Notes under the pieces: model-generated
What the model was told of the DNA's origin: nothing
The model's input: only the letters and a program-made list of their open reading frames with translations
Databases searched by the model: none
Assembly (NCBI GenBank): GCA_002256995.1
Contig: NCGX01000021.1
Span: 1 to 50,072 of the forward strand
From: Hydrogenophilales bacterium 16-64-40
GTDB taxonomy: Bacteria; Pseudomonadota; Gammaproteobacteria; Burkholderiales; Thiobacillaceae
Reading direction: 5' to 3'
Length of the DNA stretch: 50,072 nucleotides
Shown here: in pieces, positions 18,901-26,327 of the stretch
Position numbering within the stretch: the stretch's first letter is position 1
How the letters are laid out: each line of letters starts with the position of its first letter
Translations under genes and position numbers: made by a program

Positions 18901-20094
18901 TCATGGCGCACCCCGAAGCAGTGGTGGCGCGCGGATCGGTTGCCCGCGTATCAGAACCTCGACCACGATCATCGCCGCCCCACAGTCGGGGCAAACGAAG
19001 GTCGGCTGGGCGATGCCGGCCGCTGCATCCGTACCCGGGGATTCTGCGTCGGGGTCGGGAATGGCATGCAGCAGTTCACGCGCCTTGGCGAGAGCCTCGC
19101 GGCGTCCGGCATTGGCAAGCAGCCCATAGTGGCGGATACGATGAAAGCCCCCAGGCAGAACATGCAGCAGGAAGCGGCGCATGAACTCGTCGGCACCGAG
19201 CGTCATGGTCTTGTGGCGTGTCCTGCCCTTCGCCCGGTAATCCTTCCAGCGGAAGCTGACGCCATGCTCGTCCAGGGCGATCAATCGGCTGTTGGAGATT
19301 GCCACCCGGTGGGTATAGCGCGACAGATATGCCAGCACCGCCGCCGGCCCGGCAAACGGGCGTTTGGCATAGACCACCCACTCGCATTTCCGCAAGGCTT
19401 GCAGCCAGTCGGCGAAGGCCGTCTCGTCGGCGAGCTGCGCGTACTCGCCGAAGAATTGCAACTGACCGCTGCGATGCGCCGTCTCGAGCGCTTCGAGGAA
19501 GCGGCGGCGGAACAGCCGCGACAGCACCCGCACCGGCAGGAAGAAGCCGGGCCTGCAGGCGACCCAGCGTGTGCCGTCCGGCGACAGCCCGCCGCCGGGG
19601 ACGATGCCGTGCACGTGCGGATGGTGCGTGAGCGCCGATCCCCAGGTGTGCAGCACCAGGGTCACGCCGATGTGCGCCCCCAGATGTTTCGGATCGGCGG
19701 CGATGGTGCGCAGGGTCGCGGCGGCGACCTCGAACAGCAGGGCATAGATCACCGCCTTGTTGGTGTAGGCGATGGCGCTGATCGGCGCCGGCAGGGTGAA
19801 CACTGCATGGTAATAGTCCACCGGCAAGAGATCGGCCTGGCGCGCTTCGAGCCAGCGTCGCGCGGCACTGGCCTGGCACTTCGGACATGCCGGTTGCGGC
19901 AGGAATTGTAGGCGATCCGCTATGCCCGCAGGCGTCGCAGCGGAGCACATGTCCCCCCAGCGCCGCGCTGCGGCACTGCTCGATGGCCGACATGACCTTC
20001 TGCTGCCCCAGGCTCAGTGGCCACACTGAGCCTGCCGCCAGGCCGGCCCGTGGGCACGGAAGATGTCCGCGACCTCCAGGGCGCAACGCCCCAT
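18901..20094 (-). pseudogene. IS91-family transposase, frameshifted at the N-terminus
   Basis: The start MGRCALEVADIFRAHGPAWRQAQCGH (ATG at 20094) is in one frame; LSLGQQKVMSAIEQ...RCDACGH continues in a second; the Cys-rich IAYNSCRNRH segment is in a third; and CPKCQASAARRWLE onward stays open to the end at 18901. At least three single-base losses between about 20025 and 19890 are needed to explain this. The long last part holds the HUH metal motif HHPHVH, RYTHRVAISNSRL and KTMTLGADEFMRRFLLHVLPGGFHRIRHYG, all typical of IS91 Y2 transposases. The C-terminal CPDCG is a second zinc pair. Sequencing errors cannot be excluded. Confidence 0.85.
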
Positions 20095-20103
20095 GGCCGT
20101 GAC

Positions 20104-20978
20104 CTACGCGGAATGCAGGGTCTCGATGGGGCTGACCACTTCGCGCAGGATGTCGGTGGCGACCTGGGCATACAGCGCGGTGGTCTCCATCTTCTTGTGC
20201 CCGAGCAGAACCTGGATCACCCGGATATCCACCTTGGCTTCCAGCAGATGGGGGGCGAAGCTGTGCCGCAGGGTGTGCATCGAGACGCGCTTGTCGATGC
20301 CCGCTGCGTCTGCTGCGGCATGGATGGCCCGGTTGAGCTGACGGGTGCTGAGCGGGTCGATCGGATCGAGGCCCGGAAACAGCCAGCCGCCATCGAGCAT
20401 CCTGCCCTGGGCACGGGCCACCCGCCACCAGCTGCGCAGGCGCTCGAGCAGCACCGGCGAGAGCATGGCGTAGCGATCCTTGCCGCCCTTGCCCTGTTCG
20501 ATGCGCGCGTCATGCGCTGGCTGTCGATGTCGCCGACCTTCAGCGCCACCACCTCGCTGGCGCGCAAGCCGGCGCCGTAGGCGACCGAGAGCGCCGTCTG
20601 ATGCTTAAGGTTGCCGGCCGCGGCGATCAGGCAGGCTACCTCCTCACGGCTCAACACCACCGGCAGCGTGTGCGGCACGTGGACCGGCTGCATCTTGGCT
20701 GTCAGCTCGGGTTGGTCGGCGGTGACGTCGAAGAAGAACTTCAGCCCGGTGATCGCCGCATTGAGCGAGACCGGCGAGATGCCGTGATCAACCAGGTACA
20801 GCTGGTAGTTGCGCAGGTCCTCCACGCTGGCGGTGTCGGGTGGCCGGTGCAGATAGCCGGCGAACTGTCGCACCGCGCGCAGATAGTGGCTCTGTGTCTT
20901 GGGGGAAGGCTTGCGCATCCGCATGTCGTCGAGCATGCGCTGGCGAAGCGGACTGACAGTTTTATGGGAAGGTTTCAT
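20104..20978 (-). pseudogene. Tyrosine recombinase of the IS91-like element, frameshifted
   Basis: Starts at the ATG at 20978 behind AGGAG. The first part has the SAM-like N-terminal core-binding domain (RMRKPSPKTQSHYLRAVRQFAGYL) and the first catalytic Arg region (AYGAGLRASEVVALKVGDIDSQ). A base is lost near 20510, after DSQRMT. The correct frame then gives IEQGKGGKDRYAMLSP and the rest of the catalytic domain (HTLRHSFAPHL, LLGHKKMETTALYAQV with the Tyr nucleophile). Every catalytic residue is present, but in two frames. Confidence 0.85.
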
Positions 20979-21306: not shown

Positions 21307-23163
21307 ATGTCCCTCCGCTCGCTTTGCATGCGCTGGATCGCGCTCTTTGCTTTGTTTTCCCCCTCGGTGCTGGCCGCCTTGCCAGACGGCGTGGTGGCGG
21401 TATCGCACCCGGCGGCGGCGGCGGCCGGTGCGCGCATGCTGGCTGCGGGCGGCAACGCCGTGGATGCGGCGGCGGCGGTGCAGTTCGCGTTGAACGTGGT
21501 CGAGCCGCAGTCGTCCGGCATCGGCGGCGGCGGTTTCATGCTGATCCATCTGGCAAAAACCGGCGAGACCTTCATCGTCGATTCGCGCGAACGCGCGCCA
21601 GCTGCGGCCAGCGCCGACATGTTCGCGCCGGACGGCTTGCCGATGCCCTTTCCGCTCGCTTCGACCAGCGGCCTTGCGGTGGGCGTGCCGGGCACGCTGC
21701 GCGGCGTCGACACCGCGCTCACCCGCTGGGGCACGAAGACGCTGGCGGATACGCTGGCGCCCGCGATCGAGCTCGCCGAACACGGCGTTCGCGTCAACCG
21801 CTTCCTTGCCGCCGACATCGCAAACGACGGCGGCCGCACCCGGATTCATCCCGAAACCGCGGCGATCTTCCGCCCCGGCGGCGTGCCGCTCGCAGAAGGC
21901 GACTGGCTGGTGCAGCCCGCGCTCGCCCGAACCCTCAAACGCATCGCCGCCCGGGGGCCGGATGCCTTCTATCGCGGCGCCCTCGCACGGTCGATCGTCA
22001 GGGCGCAGCAGCGCACGCGCAGCGAACTGGGCGCAACCGGAACAGGTCGCATGACGCTGGCCGATCTCGCGCAGTACGAGGTCGCGATCCGCGACCCCCT
22101 GGTCGGGCAATATCGCGGCTGGACGCTCGTCGGCATGCCCCCGCCCTCTTCCGGCGGCCTTACCGTGCTGCAGATGCTGGGCCTCTTGGAGCGCTTTCCG
22201 CTCGGCGACGCCGCGCAGGGCTATGGGTTCGGCAGCCCGAAAACCCTGCACGCGATGATCGAGGCGATGCGCCTGGCCTTCGCCGACCGCGCGCTGTGGA
22301 TCGGCGACGACGATGCCGCGCCGCTGCCGCGACAGGGCCTGCTGCATCCGGACTATCTGGCAACCCGCGCCGCTTTGATCCAGCCGGACCGCCGCATGGA
22401 TCCGCCGCAGGCGGGCGACCCCCTGCCCTGGGATGCATCTGTCACCGTGCGGCCGCAACCGTCGCGCACCCCGCAGGAAAGCCCCCACACCACGCATTTT
22501 TCCATCGTCGATCGCTGGGGCAACGTGGTGAGCTACACCAGCACCATCGAATACACCTGGGGATCCGGCATCACCGTGCCGGGCTATGGCTTTCTGCTCA
22601 ACAATGAGCTGACCGATTTCAACTTCCTGCCCGCCGCCGACGCCTCCGCAAGCAACCCAGGCGCCAACGACGTCGCCCCGCACAAGCGCCCGCGCTCCAG
22701 CATGGCGCCGACGCTGCTGTTCAAAAACGGCAAGCCGGTTGCCGCCTACGGCTCGCCCGGCGGCGCCACCATCATCAACTCCGTGCTCAACGTCACGCTC
22801 AACCTGATCGACCACGGCATGAGCCTGCAGCAGGCCATCGACGCCCCGCGCCTGTCGGTCACCCACGCAGCCGGCCCGGTGCAGTGCGAAGGTGGCGCGA
22901 CTTTCATGCAGCCTCGTTTCAGCGTCGCCGCGCAGGATGCCCTGCGCGACTGGGGGCATGCGGGATTGGGCGACGCGGGAACCGACGGCTGCCAGGCTAC
23001 GATCGGGTCGGTACAGGCGATTGTCATCGACCTCGCGTCCGGCACCCATCACGGCGCTGCCGACCCGCGCCGCGAGGGAACCGTGATCCAGGTCAGATCC
23101 GCCCGCCTCGACGAAAACCAGGCCCCCCTTCAGCCCGTGAAGGCCGACGAAATTCCGCATTGA
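21307..23163 (+). CDS. ggt: Gamma-glutamyltransferase (autoprocessing glutathione hydrolase)
   Basis: 618 residues. An N-terminal signal peptide (MRWIALFALFSPSVLA, up to about residue 24) exports the proenzyme. The large-subunit signature is AAGGNAVDAAAAVQFALNVVEPQSSGIGGGGF. The processing site is the first Thr of TTHFSIVDRWGN (Thr395), which becomes the N-terminal nucleophile of the small subunit, aligned with E. coli Thr391. SSMAPTLLF and GSPGGATIINSV follow in the small subunit. The enzyme cleaves periplasmic glutathione. Transcribed alone. A long antisense frame over it is only a codon-bias shadow. Confidence 0.95.
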   Translation: MSLRSLCMRWIALFALFSPSVLAALPDGVVAVSHPAAAAAGARMLAAGGNAVDAAAAVQFALNVVEPQSSGIGGGGFMLIHLAKTGETFIVDSRERAPAAASADMFAPDGLPMPFPLASTSGLAVGVPGTLRGVDTALTRWGTKTLADTLAPAIELAEHGVRVNRFLAADIANDGGRTRIHPETAAIFRPGGVPLAEGDWLVQPALARTLKRIAARGPDAFYRGALARSIVRAQQRTRSELGATGTGRMTLADLAQYEVAIRDPLVGQYRGWTLVGMPPPSSGGLTVLQMLGLLERFPLGDAAQGYGFGSPKTLHAMIEAMRLAFADRALWIGDDDAAPLPRQGLLHPDYLATRAALIQPDRRMDPPQAGDPLPWDASVTVRPQPSRTPQESPHTTHFSIVDRWGNVVSYTSTIEYTWGSGITVPGYGFLLNNELTDFNFLPAADASASNPGANDVAPHKRPRSSMAPTLLFKNGKPVAAYGSPGGATIINSVLNVTLNLIDHGMSLQQAIDAPRLSVTHAAGPVQCEGGATFMQPRFSVAAQDALRDWGHAGLGDAGTDGCQATIGSVQAIVIDLASGTHHGAADPRREGTVIQVRSARLDENQAPLQPVKADEIPH

Positions 23164-23297
23164 ACAAATCGTCAGCGCCCGCAACACGCCCCGCCGGGCC
23201 GCGCGGTGCGCACTTTAAAAACGCGCATCGTTTGCTAAGGTAAGTGGCATCCCCGGCCTTTTGTCAATCCGTCTGCCCGGGGTCCAGGAGGTAAACC

Positions 23298-23519
23298 ATG
23301 GATATTGTTGACATGATCGTCCATGTAAACGAGACGGTTCCCGCCGAGCGAATGAACGAGCTGGAAGAGGTGCTGCGGACCGACGCCTGTGTCATCAGCG
23401 CCTGCAGTTCGAATCCCCATCTGCTGATGGTGACCTACAACCCGGCGTGCACGACTTCCGGCAATCTCTTGAACATAGTTCAAGCACAAGGCCTTCACGC
23501 GAACCTGGTCGGGCTCTAG
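23298..23519 (+). CDS. Small HMA-like alpha/beta protein of unknown function
   Basis: 73 residues with a very strong ribosome site (AGGAGGT, 6 nt upstream). The alternation of strands and helices (DMIVHVNETV, helix MNELEEVLR, then VISACSSNPHLLMVTYN and a second helix) resembles a ferredoxin-like heavy-metal-associated fold, but the CxxC metal site is absent; cysteines appear as ACVISAC and PAC instead. It follows ggt by 134 bp and precedes the c-di-GMP riboswitch region. I cannot assign a function. Confidence 0.7.
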   Translation: MDIVDMIVHVNETVPAERMNELEEVLRTDACVISACSSNPHLLMVTYNPACTTSGNLLNIVQAQGLHANLVGL

Positions 23520-23662
23520 CAAGCGCCTTCGCATTGCTTTCGATACGGTGCCGCGCGACGCTCTTCTCTCGGGCATCGATCGTGTTGAACCACGGGCGCT
23601 GCGTGTCGCGGGTGCCTTGCTTGCAACACGCGCGAGAAGGTCTAAAACATACTTGTATCGTT

Positions 23663-23766
23663 AAATAGCAAAGCCGCCGCAAGGCGGTGACGCAAAGCCA
23701 GCGGCCTCATGTGCGCGTCCGGATCGGGCCGTTGCACTTCGAGGCGGCGCGGTTACCAATACCGGC
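23663..23766 (+). ncRNA. Cyclic-di-GMP-I (GEMM-I) riboswitch
   Basis: The region shows the conserved GEMM-I core in order: GCAAAG, a hairpin CCGCC-GCAA-GGCGG (23674-23687) with a GNRA loop, the invariant GACGCAAAGCC (23689-23699), a second arm that includes GTTGCACTT (as in the Vibrio Vc2 aptamer), and the closing GGTTACC (23751-23757) followed by a CCGGC pairing strand. It lies 89 bp upstream of the DUF1540 start, with no gene between. The expression platform may be translational: the ribosome site at 23842-23851 can pair with the adjacent CTCC (GGAG-GT-CTCC). No T-run terminator is visible. A possible promoter is TTGCAA (23621-23626) with TAAAAC (23643-23648). The rest of the 23520-23854 gap holds nothing else I can support. 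Confidence 0.85.
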
Positions 23767-23854
23767 TCCAGCCGACCGCACGCAATCAGGTGCACGTCTT
23801 GCACGCCGCGTGCCCGCTGGATTTCATGCACTCCACGTTTCAAGGAGGTCTCCC

Positions 23855-24154
23855 ATGAAACACATGACCATCGACATGCCGATCGTATCCGAATGCCTGG
23901 CGAGCGAATGCGCCTACAACGTCGGCATGAACTGCCACGCCAAGGCGATCACCGTGGGCAATAGCCTGCATGCAGGCTGCGACACCTTTTTTTCGGCTTC
24001 GGGCCACACCAAGGCGGCCACCCGAACGGCGGGGATCGGCGCCTGCAAATCCACCAACTGCACATTCAACGAGGATCTGGAGTGCACGACGGACAGTATC
24101 CGCGTGGCCCCGGCAGGTCAGGAGGTCAACTGCATGACCTACTCGCCGCGCTAA
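23855..24154 (+). CDS. DUF1540 domain protein with two Cys-rich repeats
   Basis: 99 residues from the ATG at 23855 behind AAGGAGG. Two copies of the DUF1540 motif are present: CLASECAYNVGMNCHAKAI (14-32) with GCDTF after it, and CKSTNCTFNEDLECTTDSI with NCMTY. This is probably a small cytoplasmic metal- or redox-active Cys protein; the eight cysteines could form two zinc sites. It is the first gene after the c-di-GMP riboswitch, followed 48 bp later by DUF2173 genes. Function unknown. Confidence 0.85.
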   Translation: MKHMTIDMPIVSECLASECAYNVGMNCHAKAITVGNSLHAGCDTFFSASGHTKAATRTAGIGACKSTNCTFNEDLECTTDSIRVAPAGQEVNCMTYSPR

Positions 24155-24202
24155 CCGGCAAGTTTACCCAGCCTGTCGATCTACAAACCACTGAGGATTC
24201 CT

Positions 24203-24559
24203 ATGTCACGATCATCCGAATTGCTCGAGCTGCCTGGCATGGTTGCCGCGGGCCTCTTTTCCCGCAAGGGATTTCTGGAAGAGTTCGAAGGCCCTTACCC
24301 TGCCAGCGAGGCGGCCGGGCTGGCAGGCTTGTGTTCCGCCATTACGCTAACGATGGAAATGCAGGGGCTGCTGCTGGAGCGCTTGACCGGGGAACCCGGG
24401 TGGGCAGGCTGTTACGGCTGGGCGGCCTGGGGGCCGGGGAGCGCCATCGTCGCGGTGGAAGACAGCATGTGCATTGTGCAGACACCGGCAACGTCCTTCG
24501 ATGTGGTGTTCTCGGCCATGCGCACGGCTGCGGGCGTCGAGGTCAACAAAACCGAATAA
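24203..24559 (+). CDS. DUF2173 family protein, copy 1
   Basis: 118 residues. The opening LLELPGMVAAGLFSRKGFLEEFEG is the DUF2173 signature and recalls Roadblock/LC7-type alpha-beta folds. The middle ends in EPGWAGCYGWAAWGPGSAIVAVEDSMCIVQT. It lies 48 bp after the DUF1540 gene and 12 bp before copy 2, clearly in one operon. Proteins of this family are frequent in sulfur- and metal-oxidising bacteria, but no biochemical role is known to me. Confidence 0.8.
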   Translation: MSRSSELLELPGMVAAGLFSRKGFLEEFEGPYPASEAAGLAGLCSAITLTMEMQGLLLERLTGEPGWAGCYGWAAWGPGSAIVAVEDSMCIVQTPATSFDVVFSAMRTAAGVEVNKTE

Positions 24560-24571
24560 AAGGAGGATGAC

Positions 24572-24904
24572 ATGCCGACCCTGGATCAACTCATGCAATT
24601 GCCGGGCGCTTATGGCGCAATCGAATTTTCCTGCGCAGGCGAGCTGGGCGACATGCGCGGCGAACTGGAGCCGGATTTCGCCGAAATCGTCGCGCAGATG
24701 TGCGCCGCCAACATGGCCATCTATCGCATGCAGGCCACGGGCTGGGCGAAGCATACCGGCCAGCAGGGCTTTCTGCCCGAACGCGGCTTTGCCTTCCTGA
24801 GTCTCGACCATGTGATGATGGGAATGGACGGAAAAGCTGTACTCGGACGCGGTCCGGTTTTCGACTACGACCAGGCTTACCGGCTCTTCAATGAAAATGC
24901 CTAG
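24572..24904 (+). CDS. DUF2173 family protein, copy 2
   Basis: 110 residues, with AGGAGG 7 nt before the ATG. The same layout as copy 1: LMQLPGAYGAIEFSCAGELGDMRG at the start, a central helix, then FAFLSLDHVMMGMDGKAVLG. It lacks copy 1's WGPGS motif and diverges strongly in the second half, so the paralogues are old or specialised. Unknown function. Confidence 0.8.
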   Translation: MPTLDQLMQLPGAYGAIEFSCAGELGDMRGELEPDFAEIVAQMCAANMAIYRMQATGWAKHTGQQGFLPERGFAFLSLDHVMMGMDGKAVLGRGPVFDYDQAYRLFNENA

Positions 24905-25016
24905 AGAAACGCTGGATCATTCATCGTTTGCCATTGCGCATGCAGCGAAGCAATCCAGACGGCAGGCGAAATCGACGCGTCCCGAAGGCGACGGTGTTCA
25001 CAAGAGGGGATAGACC

Positions 25017-25352
25017 ATGACGGATCTGGCGAGTCTGCTTGAGATCAAGGGCGTGGTCGCAGCCCTGCGCTTTTATGATGACGGCACCCTGATGGAGGCG
25101 GCAGGCGAGATCGATCCGCTGCATACTGACCTTGCTGCGGAGTTGTGTTATGCCAATGGACGCATCCTGCATCACGGCAGCGATGTCCTCACGACCATTT
25201 CCGGCAAGGCTGGCTGGCCGCCGCGGGGATGGATGATGATGGGCGACGGGCTGTCCATCTGCACGATCGCGAATGTGGTGTGTTTCGTGAAAAACAGCGA
25301 GGTGTCTTTCAACGCGACATTGAAAGCCCTGTCCGAGCTGGAAGGTCAATAG
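25017..25352 (+). CDS. DUF2173 family protein, copy 3
   Basis: 111 residues. The start (LLEIKGVVAALRFYDDGTLMEAAG) matches copies 1 and 2. The central part has KAGWPPRGWMMMGDGLSICTIANVVCFVKNSEVSFN, where copy 1 has EPGWAGCYGWAAWGPGSAIVAVEDSMCIVQT. The gap to copy 2 is 112 bp, enough for a separate promoter, but the order and strand suggest a shared role. The preceding AGAGGGGA is a usable ribosome site. Confidence 0.8.
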   Translation: MTDLASLLEIKGVVAALRFYDDGTLMEAAGEIDPLHTDLAAELCYANGRILHHGSDVLTTISGKAGWPPRGWMMMGDGLSICTIANVVCFVKNSEVSFNATLKALSELEGQ

Positions 25353-25427
25353 AAACCGGACCCTGGGCAGGACACCGGCCCGACTCGCCTGCTCCCGCCC
25401 ATCCCCAAGACCTTGCGAGTCGACCGA

Positions 25428-26327
25428 TCAGCGCGACCCCGCCATGGAGCGGTTGAAACTGTCGATGCAGTTCTTCAGGTTCTGACTAACGCTTGCCTTG
25501 TCGCTCACCTGACAGTCTCCAGCGTCGATGCCGGGACGGCTGCCGGCAGCCGCGCTGCCGATTGCTGCAAAAGCAGGAGCGTCTGACGGTCCGGCGTTTT
25601 CCTTTGCTGCCGCCTCTTTCACGGTGCCCTTCTGTTCGAGTTTCTTTTGCGTCGCCAGCAATTCCGCCTGGAGGTGTTTTTTCTCCTGCGCCGACTGCAG
25701 CAGCATCACAGCCATCGCGCCGATCAGCACCAGCAGCATGGCGCTGGCACCCGGTATCCATACCCATTTGTTCGACAGCGTGGCAAGCACACGCCGGATG
25801 CGGCCGGGCGGTGCCGTGTCCTCATCGCTGTCGGATTCGTCTTCGCTGAAGGCTGTCGCGTCCCGGTTCAGTTCCGCGCCGGGGATCGACTCGTCGGCCT
25901 CGAGCGCGTCCGGCTTGGTCTGCCTGCGAAAAGTGGTTTTCAGCCGCGCCAGCACAGAAAGCTTGGGTGCAGGCGCTGCCTCGGTGGCATTTTCATCGGC
26001 CAGTTCCCGGGCGGGCGCTTCAGCAAGCGAGGCCGGATCCGGCGCCACGGGCTGTTCAGCAATCGATTTGCGGCCCAGGTTCAAAAGCTGTTTCAGGCGC
26101 TCGAAACGGCCGGCCTGCGGCTCGGCGGTGTCAGCGGCGGCTGCTTGTTCCGCCTCGGGCGGCACCTCCGTCGACGCTTCCGCGGCAGGCGTTTCCGGCT
26201 GTTCCGGGAACGCCGCAGCCGGCTTGCGCCAGAAGGCGAGCCGGGAAACTCCCTGCACGAGTTTTGCGGTTAAACGGTTCAAAGAAGGTCCCTTGCCGGT
26301 GCGTGCTTTTGATATGCCCCGCCCCAA
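25428..26327 (-). CDS. Single-pass membrane protein with acidic N-terminus and coiled coil
   Basis: 299 residues of unknown function. The N-terminal 190 residues are Ala/Pro/Glu-rich and probably disordered in the cytoplasm, with repeated basic patches (RLKQLLNLGRK, ARLKTTFRRQTK). One membrane helix lies at about 195-217 (WIPGASAMLLVLIGAMAVMLL), followed by a short coiled coil (QEKKHLQAELLATQKKLEQK). A small C-terminal segment with two cysteines (Cys272, Cys287) is probably periplasmic, where they could form a disulfide. It lies downstream of pepN on the same strand, 65 bp away. I do not recognise the family. Confidence 0.65.
   Translation of the reverse strand: MGRGISKARTGKGPSLNRLTAKLVQGVSRLAFWRKPAAAFPEQPETPAAEASTEVPPEAEQAAAADTAEPQAGRFERLKQLLNLGRKSIAEQPVAPDPASLAEAPARELADENATEAAPAPKLSVLARLKTTFRRQTKPDALEADESIPGAELNRDATAFSEDESDSDEDTAPPGRIRRVLATLSNKWVWIPGASAMLLVLIGAMAVMLLQSAQEKKHLQAELLATQKKLEQKGTVKEAAAKENAGPSDAPAFAAIGSAAAGSRPGIDAGDCQVSDKASVSQNLKNCIDSFNRSMAGSR

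Follow-up and report, generated by a model that had tools for sequence, protein, structure and literature searches.

The riboswitch studied here belongs to the DUF1540 gene, and the three DUF2173 genes which follow it are a separate, old unit. The window, a stretch of 50,072 nucleotides from Hydrogenophilales bacterium 16-64-40, contains both (Table 1). A sequence-only reading had inferred a single module controlled by c-di-GMP, and so combined two units which in most cases occur separately. It is most economical to assume a c-di-GMP-I/DUF1540 transcript of Thiobacillus, with a type-2 DUF2173 trio placed behind it in one lineage: The "module" formed by DUF1540 and the trio looks like a lineage-specific capture. 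The best overall explanation, to which we give slightly better than even chances, is a DUF1540 message which is controlled by the switch in the ON direction and carries the trio.

Table 1. Features of the window around the riboswitch
Feature	Position	Strand	Basis or remarks
hyp73, gene for a 73 amino acid protein of unknown family	23298..23519	+	Upstream neighbour of the switch; omitted by the sequence-only reading
Promoter-like element TTGCAA-N14-TCTAAA	23621..23646	+	Upstream of the leader; conserved
5' strand of P1 (GTAT)	23655..23658	+	Pairs with ATAC at 23759-23762
c-di-GMP-I (GEMM-I) riboswitch aptamer	23657..23760	+	RF01051 match, 24-sequence alignment, leader pairing
Linker hairpin TCCAGC...GCTGGA, inner GCACGC...GCGTGC	23767..23821	+	Between the aptamer and the ribosome-binding site; without a T run
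Shine-Dalgarno-like AAGGAGG of the DUF1540 gene	23842..23848	+	Read from the sequence
DUF1540 gene, 99 amino acids, two four-cysteine units	23855..24154	+	PF07561, 41.5 bits
DUF2173 gene A (type-2 trio)	24203..24559	+	PF09941, 80.6 bits
DUF2173 gene B (type-2 trio), predicted Roadblock/LC7 fold	24572..24904	+	PF09941, 103.7 bits
Spacer between B and C, 112 bp	24905..25016	+	Short repeat at 24942-24958
DUF2173 gene C (type-2 trio)	25017..25352	+	PF09941, 105.5 bits

The riboswitch and the DUF1540 gene

The riboswitch that had been proposed is borne out by the Rfam covariance-model search, where RF01051 reaches 59.2 bits against a gathering threshold of 35 (E 3.8e-9, complete model, 1-87). The 50 kb window gives no other Rfam match over the gathering score. 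The sequence-only reading had correctly located the GCAA-loop hairpin, GACGCAAAGCC and GGTTACC. The columns presumed to contact the ligand are invariant in the 24 aligned aptamers: The G of GCAAA, the middle A of GCAAAG and the first C after GGTTA. We take them to be G20, A47 and C92 in Vc2 numbering.

Pairing was compared over nine leaders. Paired cells amount to 97.2% in P1, 100% in P2 (the helix with the GNRA loop) and 92.0% in P3, with one pair changed on both sides in P1, one in P2 and none in P3; the compensatory change in P1 (GTAT/ATAC) is found in one of the nine leaders, L115. For the entire leader structure, 93.3% of the cells are paired, versus 29–43% when the partners are slid. Five leader pairs are changed on both sides, a number reached by 7 of 500 shuffles. 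One of the five pair-count measures, further pair types, falls below the shuffled mean (13 observed, 13.7 in shuffles). In the linker hairpin 3 of 12 pairs are changed on both sides, and its two helices are 91.8% and 85.4% paired. The folding energy of the whole leader is unremarkable (z -1.21). Pairing and covariation support an RNA structure in the leader and fall short of proof, because nine related sequences are few.

The DUF1540 protein matches PF07561 in two stretches, above the cut-off of 22.1 bits, and it is the only DUF1540 match in its own genome. Its eight cysteines are invariant across 58 aligned homologues, which makes metal binding most likely. The AF2 model has a mean pLDDT of 43.8. 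Searches by sequence for solved relatives of the DUF1540, DUF2173 and 73 amino acid proteins gave nothing convincing (best E 0.094), and PHROGs gave nothing for three proteins. CdeA, from the exosporium of C. difficile, is a DUF1540 protein with four conserved cysteines (PMC7677010). It shares the domain with the window protein, a comparison made by name rather than by the CdeA sequence. However, CdeA is a Firmicute spore protein with four cysteines, and the window protein, from a sulfur oxidiser, carries two four-cysteine units. A likeness to CydX, a subunit of bd oxidase, has been noted for some Firmicute DUF1540 proteins (PMC5322542). In the literature searched, five papers name DUF1540 and one names DUF2173, and the texts consulted report no tested function for either.

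The 73 amino acid protein shows no Pfam family at E≤1. A homologue of its gene lies near DUF1540 in 7 of the 11 Thiobacillus-type DUF1540 loci. Its position varies: Some genomes have it upstream, G032 has it downstream, and G011 has two copies.

The DUF2173 trio

All three DUF2173 genes exceed the PF09941 cut-off of 26.1 bits. The gaps between DUF1540 and A, A and B, and B and C are 48, 12 and 112 bp. With 23% and 29% identity to the first protein, the second and third are not recent duplicates. The old divergence suggested by the sequence-only reading is supported by a tree of 72 proteins, taken from 22 loci and from the two trios of the window's own genome. In it a single branch sets off all the A proteins from the rest, and the same is true of B and of C; SH-aLRT values are 99 for B and C and 11 for A.

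We have typed 70 loci, a few of which overlap, by best match to the six DUF2173 copies of the window's genome. All 61 three-copy loci have the order A-B-C; 48 are type 1 and 13 type 2, the type found in the window. The remaining nine have one or two copies, some of them truncated where a contig or locus ends or shortened by the length filter, while the incomplete trios of L189 and L190 are apparently real. In a sample of 369 genomes drawn from the larger class, DUF2173 is found in 46, with precisely three copies in 38 of them. The second trio of the window's own genome lies beside apparent ilv genes, and no aptamer is found in the 12 kb examined there.

A cluster with an RDD-family gene recurs at 14 of 24 DUF2173 loci, including L011, on whose copy the Pfam assignment was made, and the other recurrent neighbours are housekeeping-like by eye; we have taken this as conservation of position, not of function. 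The type-2 trios of Thiobacillus have no constant neighbour.

Several minor features of these loci may be mentioned. The repeat GCAGCGAAGCAATCCAG lies between B and C in the window; its last 14 bases recur in the B-C spacers of G022 and G002 and occur twice in L115. Two genera from a different family have a DUF2173 trio ahead of a cbb3 oxidase cluster, ccoNOPG (G085, L219:7067-13672; G231, L229:1308-8575; Pfam run on L219), and the trio of G231 is type 2 by best match. G029 and G034 have an extra pair of DUF2173 genes which match both trio types poorly (L095:4912-5580 and L013:1151-1824).

That DUF2173 resembles Roadblock regulators had been a guess. It holds for copy B, the one modelled, which has a predicted Roadblock/LC7 fold (alpha-beta2-alpha-beta3-alpha) when structures are compared with VIA-align. 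None of A, B and C matches Robl_LC7 (PF03259) at E≤1, and no protein of the genome does so at E≤0.01. Only two proteins of the genome match the Arf profile at E≤0.01; their best matches are IF-2 and Era, so no MglA-type GTPase is found among them. The trio thus differs from known Roadblock/LC7 proteins, such as MglB, Ragulator p14/MP1 and Streptomyces 3kye, in consisting of three paralogues in fixed order without a Robl_LC7 match in Pfam, and from the MglA/MglB system in having no MglA-type GTPase among the Arf-profile matches of its genome.

The sulfur-oxidiser setting suggested from the sequence agrees with the co-occurrence of DUF2173 with dsrA and soxB in the class sample. Uncorrected for kinship, dsrA is found in 33 of the 46 genomes with DUF2173 versus 86 of the 323 others, soxB in 43 versus 119, and either of them in 45 versus 130; G362 is the genome with neither. 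These counts are matches at E≤1e-20: 119 genomes for dsrA, with 112 over the curated cut-off, and 162 for soxB, with 148 over it. The window's own genome also has a second dsrA-like gene with one in-frame TAG (G000:C1:131034-132287). In two Sulfolobaceae, elemental sulfur induces a DUF2173 gene 99-fold and 32-fold, among the most induced genes (PMC11323534). That protein belongs to the same Pfam family and is likewise linked to sulfur oxidation. It differs in its description there as a putative membrane protein, with several transmembrane domains, whereas the proteins studied here have about 110 residues and are encoded in threes.

Tentatively, and with the odds somewhat against it, the A-B-C proteins could be an undescribed, ancient Roadblock-fold complex without an MglA-type GTPase, a scaffold or sensor in the sulfur respiration of sulfur-oxidising proteobacteria; Thiobacillus would have a second copy, which in one lineage came under the direct control of a c-di-GMP riboswitch together with the cysteine-rich DUF1540 protein, so that surface or biofilm state would be coupled to sulfur respiration. 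The DUF2173 side of this work may be the weightier one: A Roadblock-fold trio in fixed order, whose hosts in the class sample nearly all have dsrA or soxB. The role of Roadblock proteins in sulfur oxidisers without MglA becomes a question open to testing.

The two units together and apart

Eleven DUF1540 loci are of the Thiobacillus type: The window, G001 (L113), G002 (L111), G011, G022 (L110), G023 (L112), G032 (L114), L115, L116, L117 and L118. L116 is labelled Burkholderiales and has been counted here for its 86% identity; G002 is T. denitrificans RG, of the same genus as the window genome. The aptamer lies immediately upstream of DUF1540 in nine of them, all except G002 and G011. Counting the 79 named DUF1540 loci, 8 have an aptamer. 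L111 and 70 more distant loci (identity 63% or less, some of them short upstream of DUF1540, as the 9 bases of L140) yield aptamer matches of E 0.48 at best; we have set aside as chance four matches of E 0.48–0.76, including one at a second place in L118. In seven DUF1540 loci belonging to other genera of the class, an Rfam scan at E≤1 returned nothing.

Of 60 genomes compared, 36 belong to the genus and 24 to other genera within the order; c-di-GMP-I riboswitches are found in 44 under strict filters, DUF2173 in 33 and DUF1540 in 7, the last two only within the genus. At least 13 of the 36 genus genomes have a type-2 trio (G000, G002, G005, G008, G011, G018, G019, G022, G023, G026, G030, G032 and G033), a lower bound, as the typing did not extend to the trio of G004 or to the incomplete copies of G006, G028 and G033. 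The trio stands behind DUF1540 in four of them (G000, G002, G022 and G023). The aptamer is present in three of these four, all but G002, which supports the earlier reading on this point.

This conserved order in three genomes with the switch and one without it is what speaks for that reading in its strict form, a co-evolved c-di-GMP module of DUF1540 and three DUF2173 proteins. Nevertheless, the trio is away from DUF1540 and the switch in 9 of the at least 13 genomes, and six of the nine switch-bearing loci (L113-L118) have no DUF2173 gene within 3.6-5 kb on either side. The proposed search for GEMM-I next to DUF2173 elsewhere also turned against it: Among 94 other loci with DUF2173 genes or pieces, many reaching 1.5 kb per side and several places being covered twice, the aptamer is found in two syntenic relatives only, the next matches having E≥0.61 (four, of E 0.61-0.96, were set aside). 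We consider a strict module improbable. The same six loci, and the lack of a switch at other DUF2173 loci, agree with a riboswitch which governs DUF1540 only, the trio being independent and read from a promoter of its own that went unrecognised in the 48 bp gap. Against such a promoter, the gap between DUF1540 and the trio is merely 48-64 bp, on the same strand, in all four linked genomes, and CCTATA[CG]T, a promoter-like sequence upstream of A in six of eight free-standing Thiobacillus trios (by eye; the ninth, in G011, was left out), is found in none of the four linked ones. Independence of the trio is a serious alternative which we find rather unlikely. Because of the short gap and the missing promoter-like sequence, we favour the trio being read from the DUF1540 message, and the switch may reach it in this lineage.

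The ligand could also be in doubt, if the aptamer were degenerate or sensed another cyclic dinucleotide, 3',3'-cGAMP. The base taken as position 20 is a G in all 24 aligned aptamers, the one in the window included, and we give this possibility very little weight, even though a G20A change lets GEMM-I accept cGAMP (PMC6274999).

Proposed direction and working of the control

The preferred explanation, a switch-controlled DUF1540 message carrying the trio, would work as follows. The transcript would start just past 23646 and open with a canonical c-di-GMP-I aptamer. Binding of c-di-GMP would set the yield of the message for the two-unit, eight-cysteine DUF1540 protein, which probably binds metal. 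The old A-B-C unit, 48-64 bp downstream, would be co-transcribed and come under the same control in this lineage, its Roadblock-fold proteins probably forming a hetero-oligomer. The captured trio may tie a messenger of biofilm and lifestyle to proteins which otherwise track sulfur oxidation.

The promoter-like element keeps the form TTG...CTAAA and a constant length of 26 bases in 10 of the 11 Thiobacillus-type loci, and it is absent from T. denitrificans RG and from five more distant loci examined. A scan of 23100-25500 for the sigma-70 consensus gave no sites. T. denitrificans RG has all four genes and neither the switch nor the element; G011 keeps the element and lacks the switch. The control therefore appears to be dispensable, and these two relatives are natural comparisons.

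A terminator scan and accessibility modelling of the nine leaders found no expression platform, and the plus strand shows no terminator-like site. AAGGAG or AGGAGG is present in all nine. When the aptamer is constrained, the predicted accessibility of the Shine-Dalgarno sequence is almost unchanged, and that of the start codon goes down in six leaders, stays the same in three and increases in none; the largest drop is that of L118, from 0.44 to 0.20. This modelled drop is a weak hint of OFF control, contrary to the ON direction we have chosen. Exposure of the ribosome-binding site on ligand binding is not predicted: The start codon becomes, if anything, less accessible. In one candidate mechanism the 5' P1 strand would sequester the start codon (GTATCGT with ATGAAACA). 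This pairing holds in 88.5% of cells with zero covariation, and the partner is coding sequence which is also kept in the switch-less T. denitrificans RG, so this candidate is not supported. Alternatively, P3 could pair through its 3' strand (CGGYTG) with CAGCCG, the 5' arm of the linker hairpin; this helix, with 88.2% of cells paired and no pair changed on both sides, is a possible platform.

The choice of ON is made by analogy with Vc1, which precedes gbpA in Vibrio cholerae: Lower c-di-GMP gives lower expression there, and neither a terminator nor an anti-SD is evident (PMC4744006). Vc1 has the same RF01051 core as the window aptamer, and both are without a visible terminator or anti-SD switch; they differ in their targets, gbpA and DUF1540. 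We would call ON about an even bet, and OFF a little short of that.

DUF1540 represents a class of c-di-GMP-I target which we have not found in the literature searched. In fact, no paper in that search, from which subscription journals were mostly left out, joins a c-di-GMP riboswitch with DUF1540 or DUF2173. Of the downstream genes at 29 other aptamer loci, in Thiobacillus and in further genera of its order, 13 fall into a group with a DUF1631 gene of the window's own genome and 8 into a group with an S8 subtilase gene; Pfam assignments were made on one gene per group. One of the 13 is preceded by the second c-di-GMP-I riboswitch of that genome, with 56.8 bits (L012:3636-3728, corresponding to G000:C59:160635-160727).

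Elsewhere in the window, adjoining transposase-like and tyrosine recombinase-like reading frames are seen by eye at 18901-20466, upstream of a gamma-glutamyltransferase-like gene.
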